64,000 nucleotides of DNA, taken from assembly GCF_020622065.1 (NCBI RefSeq), contig NZ_JAHRYQ010000002.1:679905-743904 (forward strand). Direction: 5' to 3'. Below the pieces are notes generated by a model. It searched no databases. It was not told the origin of the DNA and saw only the letters and a list, made by a program, of their open reading frames with translations. The DNA comes from Geothrix sp. (GTDB taxonomy: Bacteria > Acidobacteriota > Holophagae > Holophagales > Holophagaceae). Below are positions 9,320 through 52,953 of this stretch, in pieces. The position numbers were made by a program, and so were the translations under genes. Within the stretch, counting starts at the first letter, position 1. Each line of letters starts with the position of its first letter.

Positions 9320-11061
9320 CCTGCGGTTTCTTCCAGCAGCCGCTTCCAGACGGCGGGTTCATTGAGGTGGCCCGTGTCGTCGAAACGGCGGCTCTCGATG
9401 AGGTAGCGGTAGCCCTGCTCCGTGAGGAACAGCTGGCGGTTGCGGGCGAATTCCTGCTCGGTGGTTTCGCTACTGATGAGTGAGTAGAAGTAGCTCACAT
9501 TGCGCTCGCCCTTGGGACGCAGGATGCGGCCCAAGCGCTGGGCCTCCTCTTGGCGCGAACCGAAGGTGCCGCTCACCTGGATGGCCACGGAGGCGTCGGG
9601 CAGGTCGATGGCGAAGTTGGCCACCTTGCTCACGATGAGCACCCGCAGCTGGCCTTCGCGGAACTGCCGGAAGAGCACCTCCCGTTCCTTCTCGGGGGTC
9701 TGCCCTGTGAGCACCGGCGCCCCCAGGCGCTCACCGATGATCCGGAGCTGCTCGAGGTACTGGCCGATGACGAGGATGTTGTCCTTGGGGTGCCCGGCCA
9801 GCAGCTCGTCCATCACCGCCAGCTTCAGGCTGTTCTCCGAGGCGATGCGGAAGCGCTGGCGCTGGTCGGCCACGGCGTACTCCATGCGCTCGTCGGTCGG
9901 CAGAGGTACCCGGATCTCGAGGCAGTGGGCCGTGGCGATGAAGCCGTCCTTCTCCAGCATCTTCCAGGGCACATCCACCCGCTTGGGGCCGATGAGGCTG
10001 AAGACATCTTCTTCCTTGCCGTCCTCGCGCACCAGGGTGGCTGTGAGGCCCAGGCGCCGCTTGGCCTGGAGCTCAGCCACCGCACGGAACACCGGCGCGG
10101 GCAGCATGTGCACTTCGTCGTAGATCACCAGGCCCCAGTTGGCGGCCTCGAAGAGCTTGAAGTGCTCGAAGGGTCCCGTCTTGCTTCGGCGGTAGGTGAG
10201 GATCTGGTAGGTGGCGATGGTGACGGGCTTGATCTCCTTGGTGTCGCCCGTATAGAGGCCCACCTGGTCCTCGGTGAGGGTGGTCTTGTCCAGAAGCTCC
10301 TGTTTCCACTGCTTCACGGCAGTGCCGTTGGTGGTGAGCACCAGGGTGTGCGTCTGCAGGCTGCCCATGCAGCCAATGCCGATGACCGTCTTCCCCGCGC
10401 CGCAGGGCAGCACCAGCACGCCCGCGCCGCCGTCGGGCCCTCCCCCCGCGTGGAAGACATCCACCGCGGCCTGCTGGTAGTGCCGCAGGCCAAAGGGCTT
10501 GCCATTCTGCTTGGTGATGGGCGACAGCTCGAAGGGCAGCGGATCGCCGGGCTTGTAGCCGGCCATGTCCTGAACGGGGTGGCCCAAGCGGATGAGTTGC
10601 AGCTTCACCTCGCCGCGCATCCCCGTGTGCAGGAAGATGCCCTTCTCGTCCGGATAGGGCTCCGCCAGCAGCCCGAACAGGGACTTCTGGTTCTCCAGCT
10701 CCCAGAAGAGGCCCCGGTCATCCATCTCCAGTGCCAGGCGATCCCCCTTGGCCACCAGACGCAACTTGCCGTAGCGCGTGCCGTGGTCCTCGATCTCCTG
10801 CAGCAAGTTCTGCGGCACCGGGTACTTGGACCAGGTGTTCAGGGTGTCGAGGATGTCCGCGCAGGCCACACCCGACGCCGAGGCATTCCAGAGACTCAGG
10901 GGCGTGATGCGGTAGGTGTGGATGTGCTCAGGGCTCTTCACCAGCTCGGCGAAGCGCGCCAGCTCATCGCGCACCTGCTCGAAATCAGGGTGCGCCACCT
11001 CGAGCAGCAGGGTGCGATCGCTCTGGACGATCAGGGGATTGTCGGGTCGGAGGGCGATCAC
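9316..11061 (-). CDS. XPB/Rad25-type DNA repair helicase
   Basis: A 581-residue SF2 helicase of the bacterial XPB group. An N-terminal helicase-C3/DRD-like region (about 1-180) is followed by Walker A LPCGAGKTVIG, the DEVH box (VIYDEVHMLPA), the TAT motif directly followed by the XPB-specific RED motif (LTATLVREDGKEED), a thumb-like region, and motif VI QRLGRILRPKG. XPB unwinds DNA 3'-5' in repair; bacterial versions often work with a PF13625 partner or a Bax1-type nuclease. A PF13625-type gene lies 4 kb away at 15109. Stop codons of this gene and pgpA overlap in CTAG. Confidence 0.95.
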   Translation of the reverse strand: MIALRPDNPLIVQSDRTLLLEVAHPDFEQVRDELARFAELVKSPEHIHTYRITPLSLWNASASGVACADILDTLNTWSKYPVPQNLLQEIEDHGTRYGKLRLVAKGDRLALEMDDRGLFWELENQKSLFGLLAEPYPDEKGIFLHTGMRGEVKLQLIRLGHPVQDMAGYKPGDPLPFELSPITKQNGKPFGLRHYQQAAVDVFHAGGGPDGGAGVLVLPCGAGKTVIGIGCMGSLQTHTLVLTTNGTAVKQWKQELLDKTTLTEDQVGLYTGDTKEIKPVTIATYQILTYRRSKTGPFEHFKLFEAANWGLVIYDEVHMLPAPVFRAVAELQAKRRLGLTATLVREDGKEEDVFSLIGPKRVDVPWKMLEKDGFIATAHCLEIRVPLPTDERMEYAVADQRQRFRIASENSLKLAVMDELLAGHPKDNILVIGQYLEQLRIIGERLGAPVLTGQTPEKEREVLFRQFREGQLRVLIVSKVANFAIDLPDASVAIQVSGTFGSRQEEAQRLGRILRPKGERNVSYFYSLISSETTEQEFARNRQLFLTEQGYRYLIESRRFDDTGHLNEPAVWKRLLEETAG

Positions 11062-11266
11062 GGCGTCAGCAGGCTCAAACCTTTCAGCCTAGAAGCCTGG
11101 GCCGGAGGGGTCAATGAAGCGGTTGGGAAGGGGCCGGATTCCCTCGGCATCCGAGGTGTTCATTAAGGAAAAGTCAGACGATCAGAAGCCCCCTCGAAGC
11201 GTATAGTTGGGGACCCCCCGAAGCCCCTCCCCGCCTCGCCGGGATTCTCATTTTTTGGAGCGCCCC
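11062..11266. promoter_or_regulatory. divergent intergenic region between helicase and exoprotein
   Basis: These 205 bases separate two divergent genes and must hold both promoters. I see a TATAGT hexamer near 11199 that could be a -10 box for the rightward gene, but no convincing -35. A moderately AT-rich patch spans about 11160-11180. No hairpin, riboswitch or small gene was convincing. Confidence 0.35.
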
Positions 11267-14200
11267 ATGGGCATGCCGATGACTCGAGTCCTCACCTCTC
11301 TGGCCCTGGTGGTGGCCTGCGGCCTGGAGGCCCAGGCGCCCACCAACCCGGTGCTCCGCCGCCGGTCGCTCCCCGCCCGGGTCGGGCCGGATGCCCTCAA
11401 CGGCCACGACCGCGCCGACCTCCGCCGGGACTGGGACCTCTACTGGTTCGGCGGCAAGCTCACGCCCGACTACATGGACTTCAAGAACCGCGCCGCCGCC
11501 GAGGAAATCCGGAAGTGGGGCCACCTCCTACCCAAGGCCAGCACCGACCGCGCCCTGGCGGCCATCCTGCCCGCCCCCAGCGGCACCGGCGGCTTCTCCT
11601 GGACCAACCTCGGCCCCACCTCCAACCTCGTGGACGCGACCTGGAGCGGCATCGACAGCGGCCGCCCCGTGGCCGTTGTGCCCCACCCCACCACGGCGAC
11701 CACCCTCTACCTGGCCACCAGCGGCGGCGGCGTCTTCAAGTGCACCAACGCGGATCTGAATGCCACGGGCGACTGGACCTGGACCGCCATCACCGATGAC
11801 CTGCCCGCCAGCGGCTCCGGCGGCAATGTGTCCATCGGCGCCCTGGCCATGAGCCCGGCCGATGCCAAGGTCCTGTATGTGGGCCTCGGCGATCCCTTCG
11901 ACGCCGAAGGTCGCGGCTTCTACAAGACCCCCGATGGCGGCGCCACCTGGACCGCGGCCACCGCCGGCCTGGGCAACGCCACCCGCTCGCACTCGATCCT
12001 CCCCCTGACGGCCACCCGCGTTCTCTGGGCCACCAACGATGGCCTGAAGGTCTCCAACGATGGCGGCGCCACCTTCGCCCCGGCCGCCGGTGCCCCGGCA
12101 ACGGGAGATGCCTGGTCCATCCAGAAGTTCACCGGCACCGATCTCGCGTGCTCCATCCAGGGCACGGCCGGCCAGATCTACACCTCCGCCGATGCCGGGG
12201 CCACCTGGACGCTGGCCACCATCACCGGCGTCACCTTCCCCATGGGCCGCATCACCCTGGCTGCCGGCGGGGATGGCACCACGGCCTACGGCATCGTGGA
12301 GGACACCACGGCCGCCAGCACCAAGGTGGCCCGGGGCGTCCTGAAGAGCACCGACAAGGGCCTCACCTGGACCTGGGTGGCCGCCCCCACCATCAGCGGC
12401 GGGCTCTTCCAGGGCACCGGGCCGCAGATGACCAGCGACGGCGGCCAGGGCTGGTACAACCACGGCCTCGCCGTGGACCCCACGAACCCCCTGCGGATCG
12501 TGGTGGGTTCCAATCTGGCGCTCTACCGCAGCATGGACGGCGGCACCAGCTGGACCCAGCTCACGCACTGGTATGGCAACGGCCACCCCTACACCCACGC
12601 CGACAACCACGCCACGGCCTGGTCCAATGGCACCCTCTATGTGGCCAATGACGGTGGCCTGGCGATTCTGAGAGACCCCTGGCGCGTCACCGTGCCCACC
12701 GCCACGGATGACCTCTCGTTCATCGACAACCGGCGCAACAAGGGCCTCAGCACCCACATGGTCTACAACCTGGGGTCCACGACGGCCGCCACGCCGGCAA
12801 ACGCCAAGTGGCGCATCACTCTGGGCATGCAGGACAACGGCACGCGCGTCCGCCAGGGCAGCGGCTCGGGTCTGCAGACCAGCGGGGTCTTCGAGGACAT
12901 GATCGGCGGGGATGGCTTCGGCACCCTGATCCACCCGGCCAATGGGGACCTGATGCTGGGGTCCATCTACTACACGCGCATCTACAAGAGCACGGACGGC
13001 GGTGCCACGCCCTTCACGGCCTCGTCCACCGGCATCAGCGAGTCGAACAACTCCAGCTCGGCCCCCTTCGCCCCCAAGATCGCCCTCGGCCCCACGGCCT
13101 CGCCGGACACCGTCTACACCTTCGTCAACAGCAAGGTCTACAAGAGCACGGACTTCGGCAGCAACTGGTCCGCCATGACCATGACCGGCTTCTCCACTTC
13201 GGGCCGGACGCTCCGGAATGTGAACGGCTCCCGCAGCTCCAACGCCGTCGGCGCGGCCAGCAGCGGCGGCCATTTCTGGACCACCTACAACGATGGCGCC
13301 ACCTGGACCGACTCTGGCGACATCACGGCCGGGAAGCTCAACACCAGCTACATCTGGTTCAACACCCAGAACGACCAGATCGTCTACGGCGCCACCGTCG
13401 CGCCGGACGCCACCGCCCACCACCTCTTCAAGAGCGTCAATGGTGGCGCCAACTGGACTTCCATCGACGGAGCCGCCGGCGCCAGCAACGGCCTGCCCTT
13501 CGGCATCCCGGTCCATGTCGTCCAGAACCTCCCCGGCAGCCTCAACACCCTGTTCGCCGGGACGGATTTCGGCGTCTACCAGAGCACCGACGGCGGCACC
13601 ACCTGGGCCCGCTACGGCAACAACCTGCCCATGGTCGCCGTGCGCGATCTCTACATCGCGCCGGACGGCAGCTTCCTCCGCGCCGCCACCTACGGCCGCG
13701 GCGTGTGGGAGCTGCAGACGACCACGGCCAACCAGACCGCCGTCACCCTCGACAAGACCTCGTTCAATTTGAACCCGTCGGCCACCACGACCTTCACGGC
13801 CACCGTGACCAATTTCACGGCGGACAACAAGGTGAACTGGACCGCGTCCAGCGGCGGGGCCGTGAGCCCGGCCCAGACCGCCAGCGGGAGCGCCACCACC
13901 TACACCGCCTCGGCCACACCCGGAATCTACACCGTCACGGCCACCAGCAACGAGGCCTCCTCGGCCAGCGCGACGGCCACGGTCAATGTCTACACGCCGG
14001 CCGCCGTGACCGTGTCCGTGACGCCCACGACGAAGACCCTTCTCACGGGCGGCACCTTCACCTTTGCCGCCGCCGTGGCGAATGCGCCGAGCCAGGCCGT
14101 CACCTGGACGGCCAGCGGAGGCGCCATCACATCGGCAGGCGCCTACACCGCCCCCGCCACCGCCGGGACCTACACCATCACCGCCACCAGCGTCTGGCCC

Positions 14201-41545: not shown

Positions 41546-42244
41546 ATGGATCGGAACTACTCCCGGGACCTGCTCAAGGCCATTCAGAAGGCCGACCGGG
41601 CGGGCGCCAACGCGGTGGTCGATGCGTGGGCCGCGGGCCGGTCCTTCCACCAGGTCATCCCGGAGCTCCTCGCCCCGACTCTGGAGACTTTCGGCAAGCT
41701 CTGGGCGCAGGGCTCCGGCGGGGTGTCGCTCGCCACGGGCTATGTGGCCTCCAAGGTGGCCGAGGATGTCCTGTCCCGCCTGCTCCTGGAATCCGCCTCC
41801 CGTGAGGCTCCCGCCCTGCCGGCGAAGGGGCCGGTGCTGGTGGGGAATGTGGAAGATGACTTCCACCCCCTGGGCCGGAAGATGGTCGCGGCTTTCCTCC
41901 GCGCGGCCGGATGGGAAGTCCATGACCTGGGCGTGGACATCGGTCCCGAGCAGTTCGTGGACAAGGCCGAGGAGACCGGCGCCCGCGTGATCGGGGCCTC
42001 GGCGATGATGTTCACCACGGCGAAGAATGTGGAAAAGCTCCGGGAGGAGATCGACCGGCGGGGGCTCCGGGGCCGGCTTCAGCTCGCCGTCGGCGGGGCG
42101 GTGTTCAAGCTCCGGCCCGAACTCGTCGAGGCCTTCGGCGGGGACGGCACCGCCGCCAGCGCCGCCGAGGCGCCCGCCTTGTTCGAGCGCCTGTGGCAGC
42201 AGTCCCTGACCTTCGAGCCCGTCTCCGGGGAAGTGCGCCCATGA
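41546..42244 (+). CDS. corrinoid (B12-binding) methyltransferase protein
   Basis: A 232-residue corrinoid carrier. A helical cap domain (about 1-90; FHQVIPELLAPTLETFGKLW) precedes a Rossmann-like B12-binding domain (about 90-215). The cobalt-ligand motif DxHxxG appears as DFHPLG, with GASAMM and VGGAVF following. Such proteins carry a methyl group on cobalt between a substrate methyltransferase and an acceptor enzyme. GGAGG at 41537-41541 supports ATG 41546. The stop overlaps the next start by 4 nt. The next three genes form a single overlapping unit with it. Confidence 0.93.
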   Translation: MDRNYSRDLLKAIQKADRAGANAVVDAWAAGRSFHQVIPELLAPTLETFGKLWAQGSGGVSLATGYVASKVAEDVLSRLLLESASREAPALPAKGPVLVGNVEDDFHPLGRKMVAAFLRAAGWEVHDLGVDIGPEQFVDKAEETGARVIGASAMMFTTAKNVEKLREEIDRRGLRGRLQLAVGGAVFKLRPELVEAFGGDGTAASAAEAPALFERLWQQSLTFEPVSGEVRP

Positions 42245-43266
42245 ACAGCCTCGAACGGGTGCTCGCCGCGCTTCAGGGGCAGCCCTCCGACCGACCCCCA
42301 TTCCTGCTCAACCTGAGTCTCTACGGATCCCAGCTCACCGGAGCTCCGGTGAAAGCGCACTTCGCCGACCCTGCCATCTTCGCCGAGGGCCAGATGGCCG
42401 TCCGGGAGGTCTTCGGCCCGGACCTGCTGCTGAGCCCCTTCCTGGTATCGGCGCTCGGGGAGGCCTTCGGAAGCCGGGCCGGCGGCCCTCCCGAGCAGGC
42501 CCCGAATGTCAGGGCCTTCGCCGCAGACTCCGCCTCGGCGGCGCTCCGGCTGCCGCTGCCCGATGTGGACGGCCACCCCAGGCTGCTCTACCTGCGCGAA
42601 ACCATCCGGATCCTCTCCCGAAAATACGAAGGCGAGGTTCCCGTCATCGGGCTTCTGGTGAGCCCCCTCGACCTGCCTCCGCTCATCATCGGCTTGGAGG
42701 CCTGGCTGGATGCCCTGCTCTTCCGACCGGACGAGGCCCGCGCGCTCATCGACCGCTGCACGGCCTTTTTCGTGCAGCTGGGGACGGCCATGCTCCAGGA
42801 CGGCGCCACCGCCCTGGCCCTGACGGCCAACCTGGCGAACCGGTTCATGGTGCCCGCCGAGGTCGTGGCCGGCATCTCCAGGCCGGCGCTGGAGCGGGCC
42901 TTCGGCCAGATTCCCGGACCCATCATCGTCCACCACGGCGGCTGCCCCCTCGTCCCCCACCTCGCGGATTTCGCCGGCCTCCCCCAGGTCGTGGGCTTCC
43001 TGGTGGATGCCGGAGAGGATCTGGCCGCGGCCCGGACAACCCTTGGCCCCGGCCCCCTGCTGCTGGGGAACCTCGACGGGCCCGGCCTGGCGGACCTCAC
43101 TCCCGGGCAGGTCCGCGTCCTCTGCGAGCGGGCCCTGGCCGCGGGCTCCCGGGACCCCCAGTTCATCCTCGCAACCTCCGGCGCGGATGTGCCTCTGGGA
43201 ACCCCGCCCGAATGCCTTCAGGCCATCACCGAATCCATCTGCCTGGCTGGGGGAGGCCTGCGGTGA
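42241..43266 (+). CDS. UroD-family methyltransferase with altered zinc site
   Basis: A 341-residue TIM-barrel protein of the uroporphyrinogen decarboxylase / MtaA methyltransferase family (SLERVLAALQGQPSDRPPF near the N-terminus; LLLGNLDGP; VPLGTPPECLQAITE near the end). In cobalamin-dependent members the zinc is held by HxC and a later Cys in a GC motif before the TP segment. Here the first element reads VHHGGCP and the later one SGADVPLGTP, with Ala where Cys is usual. A methyl-transfer partner of the adjacent corrinoid protein is likely, but a thiol acceptor is doubtful. Start and stop both overlap neighbours. Confidence 0.88.
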   Translation: MNSLERVLAALQGQPSDRPPFLLNLSLYGSQLTGAPVKAHFADPAIFAEGQMAVREVFGPDLLLSPFLVSALGEAFGSRAGGPPEQAPNVRAFAADSASAALRLPLPDVDGHPRLLYLRETIRILSRKYEGEVPVIGLLVSPLDLPPLIIGLEAWLDALLFRPDEARALIDRCTAFFVQLGTAMLQDGATALALTANLANRFMVPAEVVAGISRPALERAFGQIPGPIIVHHGGCPLVPHLADFAGLPQVVGFLVDAGEDLAAARTTLGPGPLLLGNLDGPGLADLTPGQVRVLCERALAAGSRDPQFILATSGADVPLGTPPECLQAITESICLAGGGLR

Positions 43267-43868
43267 CGACGGACTCCCGGCCCCCGCGCTGCATCGCCTG
43301 CTCGATCTTCCGGCGGGAAATCGAATCGCTGCAGGCCTCGGGGGCGCTGGACCTGGCCGTGGACTACCTGCCCTCCATGCTTCACATGGCCCCGGACCGC
43401 CTGGACGCTCGCCTGACCACCTCGCTCACCGAGGCCGAGGCCCAAGGGCAGAAAGTCTTGATCGCGTTCGGGGACTGCTGCGGCCACATGGAGGATTTCC
43501 GGGCGAAGCCTGGCATCGACCGCACGGAAGGCATCAACTGCTGTGAGATCATCCTCGGCCGGGAGGCCTACCGGCGGCTCCGGCGCGAAGGGGCCTTCTT
43601 TCTCATGCCCGAATGGGCCCTGGCCTGGCGGCAGGTGTTCATGAGCCAGCTCGGGCTCCTGGGTTCCAATGCCAAGACCTTCATGCAGGAGATGCACACC
43701 CGGTTGATCTACCTCGACACGGGCATCCAGCCCGTGCCCTGGCAAGCCCTGAACGAGGCCTCCGAGTACCTCGGCCTGCCTGTGGAGGTCCTGCCCGTGT
43801 CCCTCGACCCGCTTCTCGCCAGCCTGCGGGAAGCGGCCCGCTCCGCGAGCCATCATGACGGCCAGTGA
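43263..43868 (+). CDS. DUF1638 family protein
   Basis: A 201-residue protein starting GTG 43263, which overlaps the upstream stop (GTGA). It matches the DUF1638 pattern: CIACSIFRREIESL at the N-terminus, an internal VLIAFGDCCGHMEDF and INCCEIILGREAY. These proteins occur beside corrinoid/UroD methyltransferase genes, especially in methylotrophic anaerobes, and their biochemical role is not established. The Cys pairs may bind metal. Its 3' end overlaps the kinase gene by 14 nt. Confidence 0.87.
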   Translation: MTTDSRPPRCIACSIFRREIESLQASGALDLAVDYLPSMLHMAPDRLDARLTTSLTEAEAQGQKVLIAFGDCCGHMEDFRAKPGIDRTEGINCCEIILGREAYRRLRREGAFFLMPEWALAWRQVFMSQLGLLGSNAKTFMQEMHTRLIYLDTGIQPVPWQALNEASEYLGLPVEVLPVSLDPLLASLREAARSASHHDGQ

Positions 43869-46224
43869 CGCCATGCGATCCCCCGACAGCGCCGCCGTCC
43901 AGTTCATGATCCTGGACTTCCTCGAGGAGATCCTGAAATTCTCGGAGAGCCCCGGGGAGATGGGACAGTTCCTGACGCGCCAGCTTCGCGAGGTGATGGG
44001 CGCCCGCATCGTGGTGCTCCTGCAGCATGGCCCCGGCCCCGAGAGCGGACCCGCCCGGATCGTGGCCCTCAAGCCCGAACGGGCCCGGACCCCCGCCCTG
44101 CTCGGCGGCCTGGACCAGCTCGTCCAACTCCACCCAAACGCCCATGAGGCCACCTTCCTCGTCAAGCGCACCGCCGAGTCCCGCTACGCAGCCCTCTTGG
44201 AAGGGCTCGGCCTCGAATCCCTGAGCATGACCCCCCTTCGGGTGGGCGACCGACGCGTCGGAACACTCTTCGCGCTGGACCATCTCGACCTCAATCGTTC
44301 CGATGATGTCGTCCGCCTGCTCACGGTGCTTTCGCCGGTCTTCGCCCTCATTCTGCGGAACACCCTCCACTTCGAATCCCAGGAGGCGAAGGTCCTGGCC
44401 CAGGCTGAGGAGTACCAGGCCCTCCTGCAGACCAACCTGGACGGATTCCTCGTAGTGGCAGGCGACGGCCGGATTCTCGATGCCAATGGAGCCTACCTGC
44501 AGATGTCGGGTTACTCGCTCGACGAAATCCGGACCCTGCACATCACCGACATGGACGCGAACGAATCCCGCCAGGAGACCGACGACCGCAACGAGAAGAT
44601 GAAGTCGGAAGGCTCGGACCGCTTCCGCGCCCTGCACCGGCGCAAGGACGGGACGACCTACCCGGTGGAAGTATCGACGACCTTCGTTCCCGGCCGGAAC
44701 CTGATCATCGGCTTCATCCGGGATCTCACCGAGCGGGAAGCGGCCGAATCCGCCCTCCGCGCCAGCGAGGCGCACCACCGGGAACTCGTGGAGATCCTCG
44801 GCGAAGGCGTGGCCATCACGGACCGCCACGAGACCGTCGTCATGGCGAACCGCGAAGCCGACCGCATCTTCGGCGTCGATCGCAATCAGCTGGTCGGCCA
44901 GAATCTTCGGCCGTACCTGGATGAATCCGACTGGTTGCGGGTGGTGGACCACACCCTGCGGAGGCTGGACGGACACACGGACTCTTACCAGGTCCGGATC
45001 CGGCGCCCCGATGGGATCCGGCGCATCCTCCAGCTCACCGCCACGCCCAGGCGCGATGCCGAGGGCCAGTTCACCGGCAGCCTCGCGGTCTTCCGCGATG
45101 TCACGGAAGAGCTCAAGACCCAGGAGGCCCTGCGCGTGGCCCAGAAGATGGAGAGCCTCGGCAACCTGGCCGGCGGCCTGGCCCACGACATGAACAATGT
45201 GCTGGGGGCCATCCTCGGGCTCGCGACCACGCACCTCGACCTCCAGCCCGAGGGCACCCGGCTCCATGCCACCTTCGAGACCATCACCAAGGCCTGCCTG
45301 AGGGGGCGGAACATGGTGAAGAGCCTCCTGGATTTCGCGCGGAAGGACATGGCGGGGGAACGCTCCGTGCCCATCAACCGCCTCATCCAGGAGGAGGCCC
45401 GCCTCCTGGAGCGGACCATCCCGCCGTCCATCGCCATCACGCTGGACCTCGGTCCCGAGGTGGGAGGCATCCTCGGCGATGCCGATGCGCTCAGCCTCAT
45501 GCTGATGAACCTGTGCGTGAACGCCGTGGATGCCATGGCCGAAAGCGGGGGGCGGCTCACCCTGAGCACCCGGCTCCATGACGGACAGGTGGTGGTGACT
45601 GTGGCGGATTCAGGAAGCGGCATGGCCCCCGAGACCCTCGAGCGCGCCCTCGAACCCTTCTTCACCACCAAGCCCCAGGGCAAGGGCACGGGCCTGGGCC
45701 TCTCGCTGGTCTACAGCACGGTGAAGGCGCACCACGGGGAACTGAACATCCAAAGCTGGCCTGGCCATGGAACCAGCATCGAGATGCGGTTTCCCGCGGC
45801 GGAAACCCGGAGCGAGCCGGCGGGTCCGGGAGCCTCTGGACCGAGCGCCTCGGCCACGCCCCTGAACATCCTCCTGGTGGACGACGATGAACTCATCCGG
45901 TCCGCGGTTTCGGCCCAGCTGGAGGCCATGGGCCACCAGGCCACGCTGACGGCCTGCGGCGAGGAGGCCATGGCGATGCTGGACCGGGGCCTGCGGCCCT
46001 CCGTCATCATCCTCGATATGAACATGCCGGGCTGGGGAGGCACCGGCACCCTGCCCAGGCTGCGGGCGGCCCTGCCGGAAGTCCCCATCCTCCTGTCCAC
46101 GGGGCGGGCCGATCAGCAGGCCATCGACCTGGCCCACGCCCATCCCGGCGTCACCATCCTGGCCAAGCCCTTCAGCTTCCGGGAGCTCCAGGCCGCCTTC
46201 GCCGAGATCCTGCCGGGCAGCTGA
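43855..46224 (+). CDS. GAF-PAS-PAS hybrid sensor histidine kinase
   Basis: A 789-residue soluble protein: GAF (about 15-170), PAS (about 182-300; [20 protein letters not shown]), second PAS (about 305-420), HisKA with the phospho-His in [17 protein letters not shown], HATPase ([13 protein letters not shown]), and a C-terminal receiver (about 668-789) with the Asp in [12 protein letters not shown]. No transmembrane segments, so it senses an internal signal. It overlaps DUF1638 by 14 nt, so it is co-expressed with the corrinoid/UroD genes and may report methylation state. No separate DNA-binding response regulator is nearby. Confidence 0.93.
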
Positions 46225-48113: not shown

Positions 48114-48557
48114 TCAGTCGGGGTACCGCAGGACCTTCCAGTGCAGGAACGAGAAATGCCGCCAGGAGCCCGACATGTGGGAGCCCACCGAGGCCACCAG
48201 GGTGGCCGCCAGGTACCAGGGCAGCCGGGCCTCGGGTTGGAGGGCGCCCATGCCCAGCAGGGCCAGCTTCACCAGCACCGCCACACCGCTGCCCTGGGTG
48301 AGGATGGCCGCATCCCGGGCCAGGTCGATGACCAGGAGCAGGATCCCGCTGCCCAGCGTGAGGAGGATTGGCAGGCGGAGGGCTGGGTACCCAGCGCCGA
48401 AGGGGATCGCCCCCAGCACCAGGGCCATGGCGGCGATGTGGAGGCTGCGGAGGACCAGCTGGACGGGCCGCGCCCAGGGGAAGTTGCGCGGCCTCGGGGG
48501 GAACAGCAGGGCCCGCAGGGGGCCCGGCTTCCCGGGATGGCCAGAGAGGGGATCCAT
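48114..48557 (-). CDS. integral membrane protein, unknown function
   Basis: About 147 residues with three or four hydrophobic helices (about 35-57, 60-80, 88-108, 112-128). No recognised family; the HMSGSWRHFSFLHW stretch near the end suggests a His-rich membrane face. I chose ATG 48557; the ribosome site is only a G-run, so the start is uncertain, and a longer frame begins near 48644. It is divergent from tupA. Confidence 0.65.
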   Translation of the reverse strand: MDPLSGHPGKPGPLRALLFPPRPRNFPWARPVQLVLRSLHIAAMALVLGAIPFGAGYPALRLPILLTLGSGILLLVIDLARDAAILTQGSGVAVLVKLALLGMGALQPEARLPWYLAATLVASVGSHMSGSWRHFSFLHWKVLRYPD

Positions 48558-48628
48558 CCCCCCGTTGTACCAGCACCGGCGTCGCCCGGCAGGATCCGGC
48601 GTGCGAAACTGGCCTTCCGGAGGACGCC

Positions 48629-49465
48629 ATGCATCGTCGTTCATTCCTTGGTTGGACCTTGGCTCTCATCGCGGCCCTCACCGGCGCGGCCCTGCCGGCG
48701 GCACCGCCGGCCTCCAAGGTCATCCTCTTGGCCACCACCACCAGCACCCAGGACTCGGGCCTCCTGGACGCCCTCATCCCGCGCTTCGAGCAGCAGACCG
48801 GCTTCGTGGTGAAGACCATCGCCGTAGGGTCCGGGCAGGCCATCGCCATGGGAAGGAAGGGCGAGGCCGATGTCCTGCTGGTGCACTCCCCGGAGGCGGA
48901 AAAGGCCCTGGTGGCCGAAGGTCCCGGCGTGAACCGCCGCATCGTCATGCACAACGACTTCATCCTCCTGGGCCCCGCCACGGACCCCGCAGGCGTCCGG
49001 CGGAAACCCGCGGTCGCGGCCCTGCAGGCCATCGGAGCGGGATCGGCCCTCTTCGTGTCCCGGGGCGACAACTCCGGCACCCACGCCCAGGAAAAGAAAC
49101 TCTGGAAGGCCGCTGGCCTCGATCCCGAAGGTAAGGCCTGGTACCAGCAGACGGGCCTCGGCATGGGGCAGACCCTGTCCGTGGCCTCCGAGAAGCGGGC
49201 TTACACTTTGTCAGATCGGGGCACCTACCTGGCCCTGCGGAAAAAACTCGGACTGGAGATCCTCAGCGAAGGCGATGCCTCGCTCTTGAATGTCTACCAT
49301 GTCATCGAGGTAAACCCGGCCCGGTTTTCCAAGGTGAATGCCGTCGGAGCCCGCGCCTTTGCTGACTTTCTGGTATCGAAAGATGCGCAGGCCGTGATCA
49401 AAGATTTCGGAATTGGCACTTATGGCTCCCCGCTATTCTTTCCTGATGCCGGCAAGCCGGAGTAG
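48629..49465 (+). CDS. tupA: tungstate ABC transporter substrate-binding protein
   Basis: A 278-residue periplasmic protein with a signal peptide (about 1-25, ending LPAAPPA). ATTTSTQDSGLLDAL is the hallmark of TupA, where the Thr/Ser residues bind tungstate; ISRGDNSGTH-like VSRGDNSGTHAQEK is also present. GGAGG lies 5 nt before ATG 48629. The permease and ATPase genes follow only after pruA. High tungstate affinity fits the downstream tungsten-dependent aldehyde oxidoreductase. Confidence 0.94.
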   Translation: MHRRSFLGWTLALIAALTGAALPAAPPASKVILLATTTSTQDSGLLDALIPRFEQQTGFVVKTIAVGSGQAIAMGRKGEADVLLVHSPEAEKALVAEGPGVNRRIVMHNDFILLGPATDPAGVRRKPAVAALQAIGAGSALFVSRGDNSGTHAQEKKLWKAAGLDPEGKAWYQQTGLGMGQTLSVASEKRAYTLSDRGTYLALRKKLGLEILSEGDASLLNVYHVIEVNPARFSKVNAVGARAFADFLVSKDAQAVIKDFGIGTYGSPLFFPDAGKPE

Positions 49466-49488
49466 GCCTGCCAGACGGAGGGGTTTCC

Positions 49489-51120
49489 ATGTCCAATGCC
49501 ATTTTCTGTCTTCCCGAATCCGTCAATGAACCCATCAACCCCTATGCCCCCGGAACCCGGGAGCGCGCTCTTCTGAAGGCCGAACTGGAACGGCAGTACC
49601 ACCTCGAGCTGGACATCCCGCTCATCATCGGGGGCCAGGAAATCCGCACCGGAAAGACCCAAAAGGCCGTCTGCCCCCACGACCACGGGCATGTCCTCGC
49701 GCGCTTCCACGAGGCCGGTGAAGCGGAAGTCCGCATGGCCATCGACGCCGCCATGGCCGCCAAGAAGGCCTGGGAGGCCACGCCCTGGGAGGATCGCGCG
49801 GCCATTTTCCACAAGATGGGCAGCCTCATCTCCTCGAAGTACCGCTACATCCTGAACGCCGCCACGATGCTGAACCAGTCGAAGAGCGCCTTCCAGGCGG
49901 AGATCGACAGCACCTGCGAAACGGCCGATTTCCTGCGCTTCAATGCCGGGTTCATGGAGCAGATCTACCGCCAGCAGCCCATCTCCGATCCGCATGTGTG
50001 GAACCGCGTCCACTACCGGGCGTTGGAGGGCTTCGTCCTCGCCGTGACGCCCTTCAACTTCACCGCCATCGCCGCAAACCTGCCCACGGCCCCCGCCATC
50101 ATGGGCAACACGGTGGTGTGGAAGCCCGCCTCCACCTCCATCCTGTCGAACTACTACCTCATGCAGCTCTACAAGGAAGCCGGGCTGCCGGATGGCGTCA
50201 TCAACTTCGTCCCCGGCCGCGGTTCCATGATCGGCAAGGTCGCGCTGGAGGACCGGAACTTCGCGGGCCTGCACTTCACCGGCTCCACGGGCGTCTTCAA
50301 CAGCATGTGGAAGACCATCAGCGGCAACCTGGAGCGCTACCGCAGCTATCCCCGCATCGTGGGCGAGACTGGCGGCAAGGACTATGTCTTCATGCACCAG
50401 TCCGGCGATGTGGCCCAGACCGCCGCCGCCATCGTGCGCGCGGGCTTCGAATACCAGGGCCAGAAATGCTCGGCCTGCTCCCGGGTGTATGCCCCCGCCT
50501 CCCGCTGGCCCGAGCTGAAGGAGCGGCTCCTCGGCCTGCTCGCCGAGATCCGCATGGGCGATGTGCGCGACTTCCGGAACTACTTCAACGCTGTCATCGA
50601 CGAAGCCGCCTTCGACAACACGATGAAGTACATCGAGCTGGCCCGGCATGCGAAGGACGCCGAGATCCTCGCCGGCGGCAAGGGCGACAAGTCCAAGGGC
50701 TGGTTCATTGAGCCCACGATCATCCTCACCACCAATCCCAAGTTCGTGAGCATGGAGGAGGAGATCTTCGCCCCCGTGGTCACCATCTTCGTCTATGACG
50801 ACGACAAGCTCGACGAGACGCTGAAGATCCTGGACGAGACCTCGCCCTACGCCCTCACCGGCGCGATCTTCGCCCGCGACCGTTATGTGATCAACCACCT
50901 CACCGAGGCCCTGGCCAACACGGCGGGGAACTTCTACATCAACGACAAGCCCACCGGGGCCGTGGTCGGCCACCAGCCCTTCGGCGGCTCCCGGGCCTCG
51001 GGCACCAACGACAAGGCCGGCAGCTTCCTGAACCTGATCCGCTGGACCTCCCCGCGCACCATCAAAGAGAGCTTCACGCCGCCCGCCGACATCAAGTTCC
51101 CCTTCCTCGAAGCGGAATGA
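49489..51120 (+). CDS. pruA: delta-1-pyrroline-5-carboxylate dehydrogenase
   Basis: Oxidises glutamate semialdehyde to glutamate with NAD(P), the last step of proline catabolism. 543 residues, matching the monofunctional group. Features: FNFTAIAANLPTAPAIMGN at the cofactor site, GETGGKD with the general-base Glu, GFEYQGQKCSACSRVY with the catalytic Cys, and EEEIFAPVVTIF. It lies between tupA (24 nt) and tupB (19 nt) on the same strand, so it was inserted in a transporter operon. No proline dehydrogenase is seen in this window. Confidence 0.95.
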   Translation: MSNAIFCLPESVNEPINPYAPGTRERALLKAELERQYHLELDIPLIIGGQEIRTGKTQKAVCPHDHGHVLARFHEAGEAEVRMAIDAAMAAKKAWEATPWEDRAAIFHKMGSLISSKYRYILNAATMLNQSKSAFQAEIDSTCETADFLRFNAGFMEQIYRQQPISDPHVWNRVHYRALEGFVLAVTPFNFTAIAANLPTAPAIMGNTVVWKPASTSILSNYYLMQLYKEAGLPDGVINFVPGRGSMIGKVALEDRNFAGLHFTGSTGVFNSMWKTISGNLERYRSYPRIVGETGGKDYVFMHQSGDVAQTAAAIVRAGFEYQGQKCSACSRVYAPASRWPELKERLLGLLAEIRMGDVRDFRNYFNAVIDEAAFDNTMKYIELARHAKDAEILAGGKGDKSKGWFIEPTIILTTNPKFVSMEEEIFAPVVTIFVYDDDKLDETLKILDETSPYALTGAIFARDRYVINHLTEALANTAGNFYINDKPTGAVVGHQPFGGSRASGTNDKAGSFLNLIRWTSPRTIKESFTPPADIKFPFLEAE

Positions 51121-51139
51121 CCAAGAACAATAGGGGGCT

Positions 51140-51838
51140 ATGGATCTGATCTGGGAGGGCCTCCGGAAAGCGCTGGAGCTGTTGCTCACGCTGGACCCGG
51201 AAGTCCTCCGGGTCACCCTGCTCTCCCTCCAGGTCTCGGGCGCCGCCACGCTCATCAGCCTGGTCATCGGACTGGGCATCGCCGTGCCCGTGGCCCTCAA
51301 CGAATTCCCAGGCAGGCGCCTGGTCATCGCCCTGCTGAACACGGGCATGGGCCTGCCCCCCGTGGTGGTGGGCCTCTTCGTGACCGTGCTGCTGTGGCGG
51401 AGCGGGCCGCTGGGCTTCCTGGAGATCCTCTACACGCCGAGCGCCATGATCCTCGCCCAGGCCGTCATCGCCTCGCCCATCATCGCAGGCATCAGCCTCT
51501 CGGCCCTCCAGCACCTGCCGCCGGGCCTGCGCCTGCAGGTCCTGGCCTTGGGCGCCTCCCGCCCTCAGATGGTGTGGCTGCTGCTGAAGGAAGCCCGCCT
51601 GCCCCTGCTGGCCGCCGTGATGGCGGGCTTCGGCGGCGTCATTTCCGAAGTGGGCGCCTCCATCATGGTGGGCGGCAACATCAAGGGCCAGACGCGGGTG
51701 CTGACGACGGCCACCGTGATGGAGACGGGTCGCGGCAATTTCGAAGTGGCCTTCGCCCTCAGCATCATCCTGCTGATCCTGGCCTTCGCCGTGAACGCGG
51801 TACTGACCCATCTCCAGCAGCGGGACCGGCCCCGATGA
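51140..51838 (+). CDS. tupB: tungstate ABC transporter permease
   Basis: A 232-residue inner-membrane permease with about five to six helices. The EAA-like loop near ALGASRPQMVWLLLKEARLP and the downstream GFGGVISEVGASIMVGGNIKGQTRVLTTA segment match TupB/ModB-type proteins. Its stop overlaps the ATPase start by 4 nt (ATGA). It works with tupA and the next gene to import tungstate. Confidence 0.93.
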   Translation: MDLIWEGLRKALELLLTLDPEVLRVTLLSLQVSGAATLISLVIGLGIAVPVALNEFPGRRLVIALLNTGMGLPPVVVGLFVTVLLWRSGPLGFLEILYTPSAMILAQAVIASPIIAGISLSALQHLPPGLRLQVLALGASRPQMVWLLLKEARLPLLAAVMAGFGGVISEVGASIMVGGNIKGQTRVLTTATVMETGRGNFEVAFALSIILLILAFAVNAVLTHLQQRDRPR

Positions 51839-52953
51839 GCCGGGCGGTCCTGCTGGAGGCACGGAACCTCCAGGTCCATCGGGGCCGCGTCCAGGTCCTG
51901 GCCGTCCCCGAGCTGGACCTGCGCGCGGGCGAGGTTCTGGCCCTCATGGGTCCCAACGGCGCCGGAAAGAGCACCCTGATGCTGGCCCTGGCTGGCCTTC
52001 TGCCTCTGTCCGAGGGATGCCTCCGCTTCAATGGCACCGAGCTGCGATCCCGCTCGGACCGGGAGACCTACCGGCGTCGCATGACCATGGTCTTCCAGGA
52101 TCCCCTGCTCTTCGACGCCACCGTGGCCCAGAACATCGCCACCGGCATGAAGCTGCGGGGCCTTCCCGCTGGGGAGCGTGGGCCCCGGGTCCGCGCGTGG
52201 GCCCAGCGCCTGGGCATCGGGGACCTGCTCGACCGGTCGGCCCGGCGCCTCTCCGGGGGCGAGGCCCAGCGCACCGCCCTGGCCCGGGCCCTTGTGCTGG
52301 AACCGGAGATCCTCTTCCTGGACGAGCCCTTCAGCGCCCTGGACGCCCACACCCGCGAAGGCCTCCTGGACGACCTGGGGCGCATCCTCGCCGAGGCCGG
52401 CTGCACGGCGGTCTTCTCCACCCATGACCACGGGGAGGCCGCCCGGCTTGCCCACCGCCTCGTGGTGATGAAGGAGGGCGCCATCCTCCAGACCGGGGGC
52501 CTCCGTGAAGTGATGAACCACCCCCAGGATCCCTTCGTGGCCACCTTCGTGGGGATGGAGACGCTGCTCAAAGGCCGGGTGACGGCCTGTCGCGAGGGCC
52601 TCCTGACCCTGCGGCTCGGAAAGGGCGCCGGGGACCATGAAGTGCTGGCCATGGGCGAAGCCCAGCCTGGCCAGACCGCCCTGGTGGGCATCCGACCTGA
52701 ACATGTGGCCCTTTCTTTACAGACCGACAAATCCAGCAGCGCCCGAAATGCCTTCCAGGGGACTGTGACGAAGGTCATTCCCCGGGGCCCTTTCTTCAAG
52801 GTCGAGCTGGATTGCGGGTTCTTCCTGGCAGCCTTCGTCACCTCGCAATCCCTGACAGAGCTTGGGCTTGAACCGGGGCGCCAGGTGGTGGCCTCCTTCA
52901 AGGCCACCGCCGCCCACCTCATCCGCCGGGAAGGGCTCCACGCCGAAGTGTGA
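51835..52953 (+). CDS. tupC: tungstate ABC transporter ATP-binding protein
   Basis: A 372-residue ATPase: Walker A GPNGAGKSTLM (near residue 43), signature LSGGEAQRTALARAL, Walker B ILFLDEPFSALD, switch His in STHDHGEA. A C-terminal TOBE/mop-like region (about 245-370; NAFQGTVTKVIPRGPFFKVEL) probably binds the oxyanion and regulates transport, as in ModC. ATG 51835 overlaps the tupB stop. The next gene, encoding a ferredoxin, is 111 nt downstream. Confidence 0.93.
   Translation: MSRAVLLEARNLQVHRGRVQVLAVPELDLRAGEVLALMGPNGAGKSTLMLALAGLLPLSEGCLRFNGTELRSRSDRETYRRRMTMVFQDPLLFDATVAQNIATGMKLRGLPAGERGPRVRAWAQRLGIGDLLDRSARRLSGGEAQRTALARALVLEPEILFLDEPFSALDAHTREGLLDDLGRILAEAGCTAVFSTHDHGEAARLAHRLVVMKEGAILQTGGLREVMNHPQDPFVATFVGMETLLKGRVTACREGLLTLRLGKGAGDHEVLAMGEAQPGQTALVGIRPEHVALSLQTDKSSSARNAFQGTVTKVIPRGPFFKVELDCGFFLAAFVTSQSLTELGLEPGRQVVASFKATAAHLIRREGLHAEV

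Follow-up and report, generated by a model that had tools for sequence, protein, structure and literature searches.

The operon nearest to the locus studied here is the mec cassette of anaerobic dichloromethane use, which contains several methyltransferases, a separate response regulator and a PocR-domain kinase and is expressed on its substrate (PMC9768040). DUF1638 proteins have been described in metabolic B12 systems: genetics in Phaeobacter inhibens ties such a protein to B12 reactivation, together with a split methionine synthase and a RamA-like protein (PMC5764234), another accompanies the MtgC system of Ruegeria, which uses betaine (PMC12478193), and the family is also named in a proteome list (PMC12542648). 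The original prediction, made from the DNA sequence of the present locus, had DUF1638 accompanying corrinoid methyl transfer in methylotrophic anaerobes; these reports bear out the association (PMC5764234, PMC12478193) but not the restriction to anaerobes, as the documented cases are alphaproteobacteria. B12-binding domains also serve as signal inputs in the light sensors CarH and the photocobilins, whose outputs include diguanylate cyclases and which carry a W-x9-EH motif (PMC10979010, PMC11796333), and MsmS of Methanosarcina acetivorans is a haem-based PAS/GAF kinase tied to methyl metabolism (PMC6944256).

The window (the whole 64,000-nucleotide stretch of Geothrix sp. DNA that was analysed) contains four + strand genes, encoding a B12-binding protein, a UroD-like protein, a DUF1638 protein and a soluble GAF-PAS-PAS hybrid histidine kinase, which overlap by 4, 4 and 14 nt; gene coordinates and Pfam agree with the original prediction on order, overlaps and families. 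The corrinoid-binding protein (41546..42244, 232 aa, GGAGG before the ATG) combines a four-helix cap (PF02607-like) with a B12-binding domain (PF02310, 3.7e-25), and the DFHPLG sequence noticed earlier (residues 105-110, 41858..41875, +) fits the corrinoid-binding motif DxHxxG, so that the protein has both the domain and the motif expected of a corrinoid protein. The UroD-superfamily protein (42241..43266, +, 341 aa) matches the UROD family (PF01208) with an E value of 3.2e-43 and 148.5 bits against a cut-off of 23.9. The DUF1638 protein (PF07796; 2.4e-28, 99.5 bits against a curated cut-off of 27) is encoded at 43263..43868 (+, 201 aa) with a GTG start and falls in the class I (sensory) group defined below. 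The kinase (43855..46224, +, 789 aa) was assigned two PAS domains (44440..45111), the phospho-acceptor HisKA and HATPase_c domains (45157..45801) and a C-terminal receiver (Response_reg, 45868..46197) by Pfam, all on the + strand, and thus has the full complement of a hybrid histidine kinase, including the receiver of its own that had been claimed for it. The GAF domain of the proposed GAF-PAS-PAS arrangement was not seen by Pfam, which found no family match in the first 180 residues; it is nevertheless right, since the model of residues 10-186 (pLDDT 85.9) has a GAF fold, with 3k2n and phytochrome-type GAF domains among its Foldseek matches (best E 2.3e-8), and the GAF-like domain was delimited by predicted fold and profile to residues 13-182 (43891..44400, +). 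The locus is flanked by an HgmA-like dioxygenase gene and an MFS transporter gene, both opposite in direction, and contains no methyl acceptor enzyme, response regulator or RACo. Elsewhere in the window (48368-52953, +), the open reading frames read as binding protein, permease and ATPase of a putative tungstate-type ABC transporter, apparently interrupted by a gene for an aldehyde/pyrroline-carboxylate-type dehydrogenase (49489-51120).

All 104 B12 proteins compared retain DxHxxG, and none of them has the CarH motif W-x9-EH. The window UroD protein scored below the NCBIfam cut-offs for the subfamily of MtaA/MtbA/CmuA methylcobamide:CoM methyltransferases (82.1 against 235.4 bits for TIGR01463 and 95.0 against 244 bits for NF004889). 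The zinc ligands of MtaA, H-x-C plus a distal Cys, are replaced in it by HHGG and SGAD; in the corresponding HHGGC (residues 231-235, 42931..42945, +) the Cys position is Gly. The complete triad was found in no sensory UroD aligned and is retained in the metabolic UroDs L076 and L087 (LHICG, GCE). The earlier label 'UroD-family methyltransferase' therefore holds for the family but not for the zinc ligands of known thiol methyltransferases: judged by its sequence, the protein is probably a family member that is a 'methyltransferase' by descent only. Three cysteines of DUF1638, Cys13 (codon 43299..43301), Cys72 (43476-43478) and Cys93 (43539-43541, all +), occur without exception in all 61 sequences compared, whether sensory or metabolic, and follow strand ends in the model (pLDDT 96.1), where they may plausibly form a shared site. 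No solved structure for DUF1638 was found by sequence. As structure comparison turned up nothing clearly related to the fold (lowest Foldseek E 6e-3; the best VIA match to the model, with a Z of 7.6 over 105 residues and an rmsd of 3.0, may reflect a common arrangement only), no function was read from it.

Within the genus, DUF1638 was found in 21 of 47 genomes, and 17 loci have the order B12-UroD-DUF1638-kinase, 15 of them near the window locus and two distant (L016/L041, L017/L042); in the remaining genus loci, the DUF1638 protein encoded behind B12 and UroD is longer. Across the phylum (28 of 396 genomes with DUF1638) loci of two kinds were seen, sensory (L072, L075, L077, L078, L088) and those with methyl-transfer genes, mostly lacking a kinase. 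Scanning 84,980 genomes with a pattern gave 80 loci; because the pattern was derived from sensory DUF1638s, the share of sensory loci among them is biased in their favour. In nearly every locus the genes run B12, UroD, DUF1638 along a single strand, with the following gene overlapping or abutting. HATPase_c was detected in 59 of the 66 downstream proteins scanned, HisKA in 56, a receiver in 34, GGDEF in 3 and EAL in 1; as L106 and L149 have downstream GGDEF proteins that lack HATPase, at least 61 of 66 are signalling proteins. By record names, many of them of metagenome bins so that single placements may be wrong, the 80 loci span at least nine phyla (Acidobacteriota, Bacteroidota, Pseudomonadota, Desulfobacterota, Bacillota, Chloroflexota, Spirochaetota, Planctomycetota and Ignavibacteriota). 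The four-gene order, a search for which in acidobacterial and other genomes had been proposed, thus recurs far beyond chance.

A sample independent of the pattern was obtained by searching 276 genomes of one proteobacterial class (that of Methylomonas LW13) by the Pfam family DUF1638, giving 24 loci. No UroD and no kinase match lay within the 1.5-kb flanks of 15 of these, and B12-UroD preceded DUF1638 in the other nine, which comprise three followed by a kinase (L176, L187, L190/L201), four with DUF1638 fused to PAS or kinase domains (L194/L203, L195, L197/L204, L198), one that is truncated (L196/L202) and one without an adjacent kinase (L188/L200). It had been argued at the outset that the link would be accidental if the kinase were missing where the first three genes occur; for the most part it is not missing and the link survives, with exceptions such as L188/L200, where L200 reads RACo-B12-UroD-DUF1638. 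Two further exceptions are L135 (Candidatus Methylobacter oryzae), with kinase-RACo-B12-DUF1638 and no UroD, and L070, in which a histidine kinase gene lies 80 bp downstream of a metabolic DUF1638 that also has B12 and two UroD genes nearby. In Methylomonas LW13 itself (L141), a receiver-PAS-GGDEF-EAL protein (10219-12366) comes after the class II set and its kinase, an arrangement that suggests a cyclic-di-GMP output in methanotrophs.

The classes were examined in a tree of 95 DUF1638 domains. In this quick tree, which includes long branches and for which no root was inferred, a branch with SH-aLRT 95 sets apart class I (the window type), one with 98 class II (in which RACo is frequent) and one with 99 class III (the fusions); the metabolic sequences lie together on another branch (SH-aLRT 59). 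Such a tree had been called for in the original prediction, and it places the sensory loci in three groups apart from the DUF1638 of methyl-transfer loci. Fusions of DUF1638 to signalling domains recur: DUF1638-GAF-HisKA-HATPase-receiver (L043, L044) and DUF1638-PAS-GGDEF (L049) in the genus, DUF1638-GAF-like-PAS-HisKA_2-HATPase in L108, and DUF1638-kinase proteins in L195, L198 and L204. B12-binding and UroD-like domains share one reading frame in L129, L152 and L161 (Gallionellaceae and relatives); the L129 kinase begins with an ethylene-receptor-like membrane domain (ETR1_N). In L045-L048 and in L078, where a PAS kinase comes next, DUF1638 is extended by about 200 residues that finish in a stretch rich in Cys (CAWCRK...CPDC or CSSCKK...CPEC).

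A profile seeded from residues 1-190 of the window kinase showed that the same GAF-like domain starts the class I downstream proteins, whether kinase or GGDEF protein (L106), and that in L108 it lies immediately C-terminal to DUF1638 in one protein. Pairwise distances of the GAF-like domain correlated with those of the three upstream proteins (r 0.65-0.81; 0 of 2000 permutations as high). Part of this correlation is expected from shared ancestry and the informative comparison is with the kinase core: in the 13 loci with a kinase core, r against the three proteins was 0.78-0.85 for the GAF-like domain versus 0.56-0.59 for the core. In other words, the divergence of this domain of the kinase tracks that of the three upstream genes.

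RACo is the ATP-driven reductive activator of corrinoid proteins. Its gene lies directly 5' of the B12 gene in 27 loci, which are class II without exception, and this argues that Co(I) chemistry matters there. In the genus RACo occurs in exactly two genomes, those with L041 and L042, and outside the genus the class I genomes differ in this respect, 8 of the 15 tested having no RACo. A mec-like system would have a reductive activator (RACo/RamA) in the operon or genome, as the class II loci do and the window does not: its genome gave 0 matches to RACo and no MttB, and its only other UroD is HemE-like. The window organism therefore has no obvious corrinoid methyl pathway to monitor, and the sensing of methyl flux, as put forward in the original prediction, is unsupported here. 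For the window class, which lacks RACo in its operons, the signal could be redox state, corrinoid loading or a single turnover.

Three genes derived from B12-dependent methyl transfer, placed before a kinase or fused to one in many unrelated bacteria, are most likely a B12-based sensor and not a metabolic pathway. We estimate a probability of roughly 0.66 that the first three genes form an input module recruited from a corrinoid methyl-transfer system and that the fourth is its signalling output. A sensory role is well supported by sequence comparison, namely by the order with signalling genes, the fusions, the GAF-like domain, the DUF1638 groups, the conservation of motif and cysteines, the loss of the zinc triad and the presence of RACo in one class; across the family of loci, the output is best read as a kinase or a cyclic-di-GMP protein. 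The UroD-like barrel would bind a small molecule, perhaps a methyl donor, beside the corrinoid protein, and DUF1638 would read the corrinoid state (methylated, reduced, oxidised or loaded) and relay it to the kinase's GAF-like domain, which in turn would set autophosphorylation and transfer to the receiver of the same kinase. Within this scheme we infer the physical contacts, the ligand, the corrinoid state that is read and the direction of the response, as well as the chemistry and whether the signal is methyl or redox. The coupling of a methyl-transfer set to a kinase as sensor, the core of the original prediction, gains strength from the order across phyla, the DUF1638 fusions and the GAF-like domain that diverges in step. 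Several points weigh against the sensor: neither the operons of the window class nor any part of the window's genome provides RACo, which leaves the means of keeping cobalt reduced unexplained, zinc-ligand loss would also fit a methyltransferase with a non-thiol partner, and L200 (no kinase), L135 (no UroD) and L070 (kinase at a metabolic DUF1638) depart from the pattern.

A narrower version of the sensor, in which Co(I)/Co(II) alone is read as a measure of oxygen or electron supply and the UroD is a scaffold that performs no demethylation, draws on the invariant corrinoid motif, on the three invariant DUF1638 cysteines as a possible metal or redox site, on the genetic tie of the Phaeobacter DUF1638 to B12 reactivation (PMC5764234) and on RACo, a redox device, in class II. 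We consider it unlikely, with about one chance in a few, because a UroD in nearly all loci, fused to the B12 protein in three, suggests more than support. The loci could also be ordinary catabolic corrinoid methyltransferase operons, in which the three genes demethylate a substrate under a kinase acting as local regulator, given that mec unites a corrinoid protein, a UroD-family protein, reactivation genes and a two-component pair (PMC9768040), that class II has RACo and that the L070 kinase adjoins a metabolic DUF1638. However, acceptor enzyme, response regulator and RACo are all wanting at the window locus and RACo and MttB in its genome, fusions join DUF1638 to kinases and to GGDEF proteins, the zinc triad is lost, and a GGDEF or EAL output is no direct regulator of a local operon; a catabolic role is accordingly improbable. 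Light sensing of the CarH or photocobilin kind is rated lowest, at a very small chance, because the W-x9-EH motif is missing throughout and because UroD, DUF1638 and RACo would be unnecessary for it, even though there are known light sensors in which B12 domains are joined to outputs of the GGDEF type and others (PMC10979010, PMC11796333). In the alignment, the class I and III cap does have a Trp at what we presume to be the CarH Trp position.

The B12-based sensor may tentatively be extended, with slightly less than even odds, to a widespread class of enzyme-derived sensors in which the UroD-like barrel, the corrinoid protein and DUF1638, joined in one class by RACo, demethylate or bind a methyl compound only to report it and DUF1638 couples them to kinases and cyclic-di-GMP enzymes. 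If the reading as a sensor is right, some members of the DUF1638 family would gain a role, and a multi-protein, probably not light-driven kind of B12 sensing would be added in Acidobacteriota, methanotrophs, relatives of Geobacter and Accumulibacter, and others; it would also be a warning for annotation, since a good many genes now called 'methyltransferase' or 'uroporphyrinogen decarboxylase' in clusters of this kind probably serve in signalling. The combination of uroporphyrinogen decarboxylase, cobalamin-binding and GGDEF domains had no description in the openly searchable literature, and a B12-UroD-DUF1638-kinase sensor is provisionally regarded as undescribed so far.

Among the known systems, MsmS resembles the window kinase in its PAS/GAF build and its tie to methyl metabolism but is haem-based, and a corrinoid protein input is not described there (PMC6944256). 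CarH and the photocobilins share the B12-binding domain as signal input but respond to light and operate without UroD, DUF1638 or RACo (PMC10979010, PMC11796333). The Phaeobacter and Ruegeria sets likewise link a B12-binding protein with DUF1638, and the likeness lies in the functional connection between DUF1638 and corrinoid reactivation; they represent the metabolic use of DUF1638, with no UroD or kinase partner described (PMC5764234, PMC12478193). The mec cassette resembles the present loci in clustering a histidine kinase with a corrinoid protein, a member of the MtaA/CmuA family and genes that are likely to serve corrinoid reactivation (PMC9768040), whereas in the window and related loci the single UroD has no zinc triad, acceptor enzyme and regulator are absent, and a kinase or GGDEF protein adjoins DUF1638 or is fused to it.
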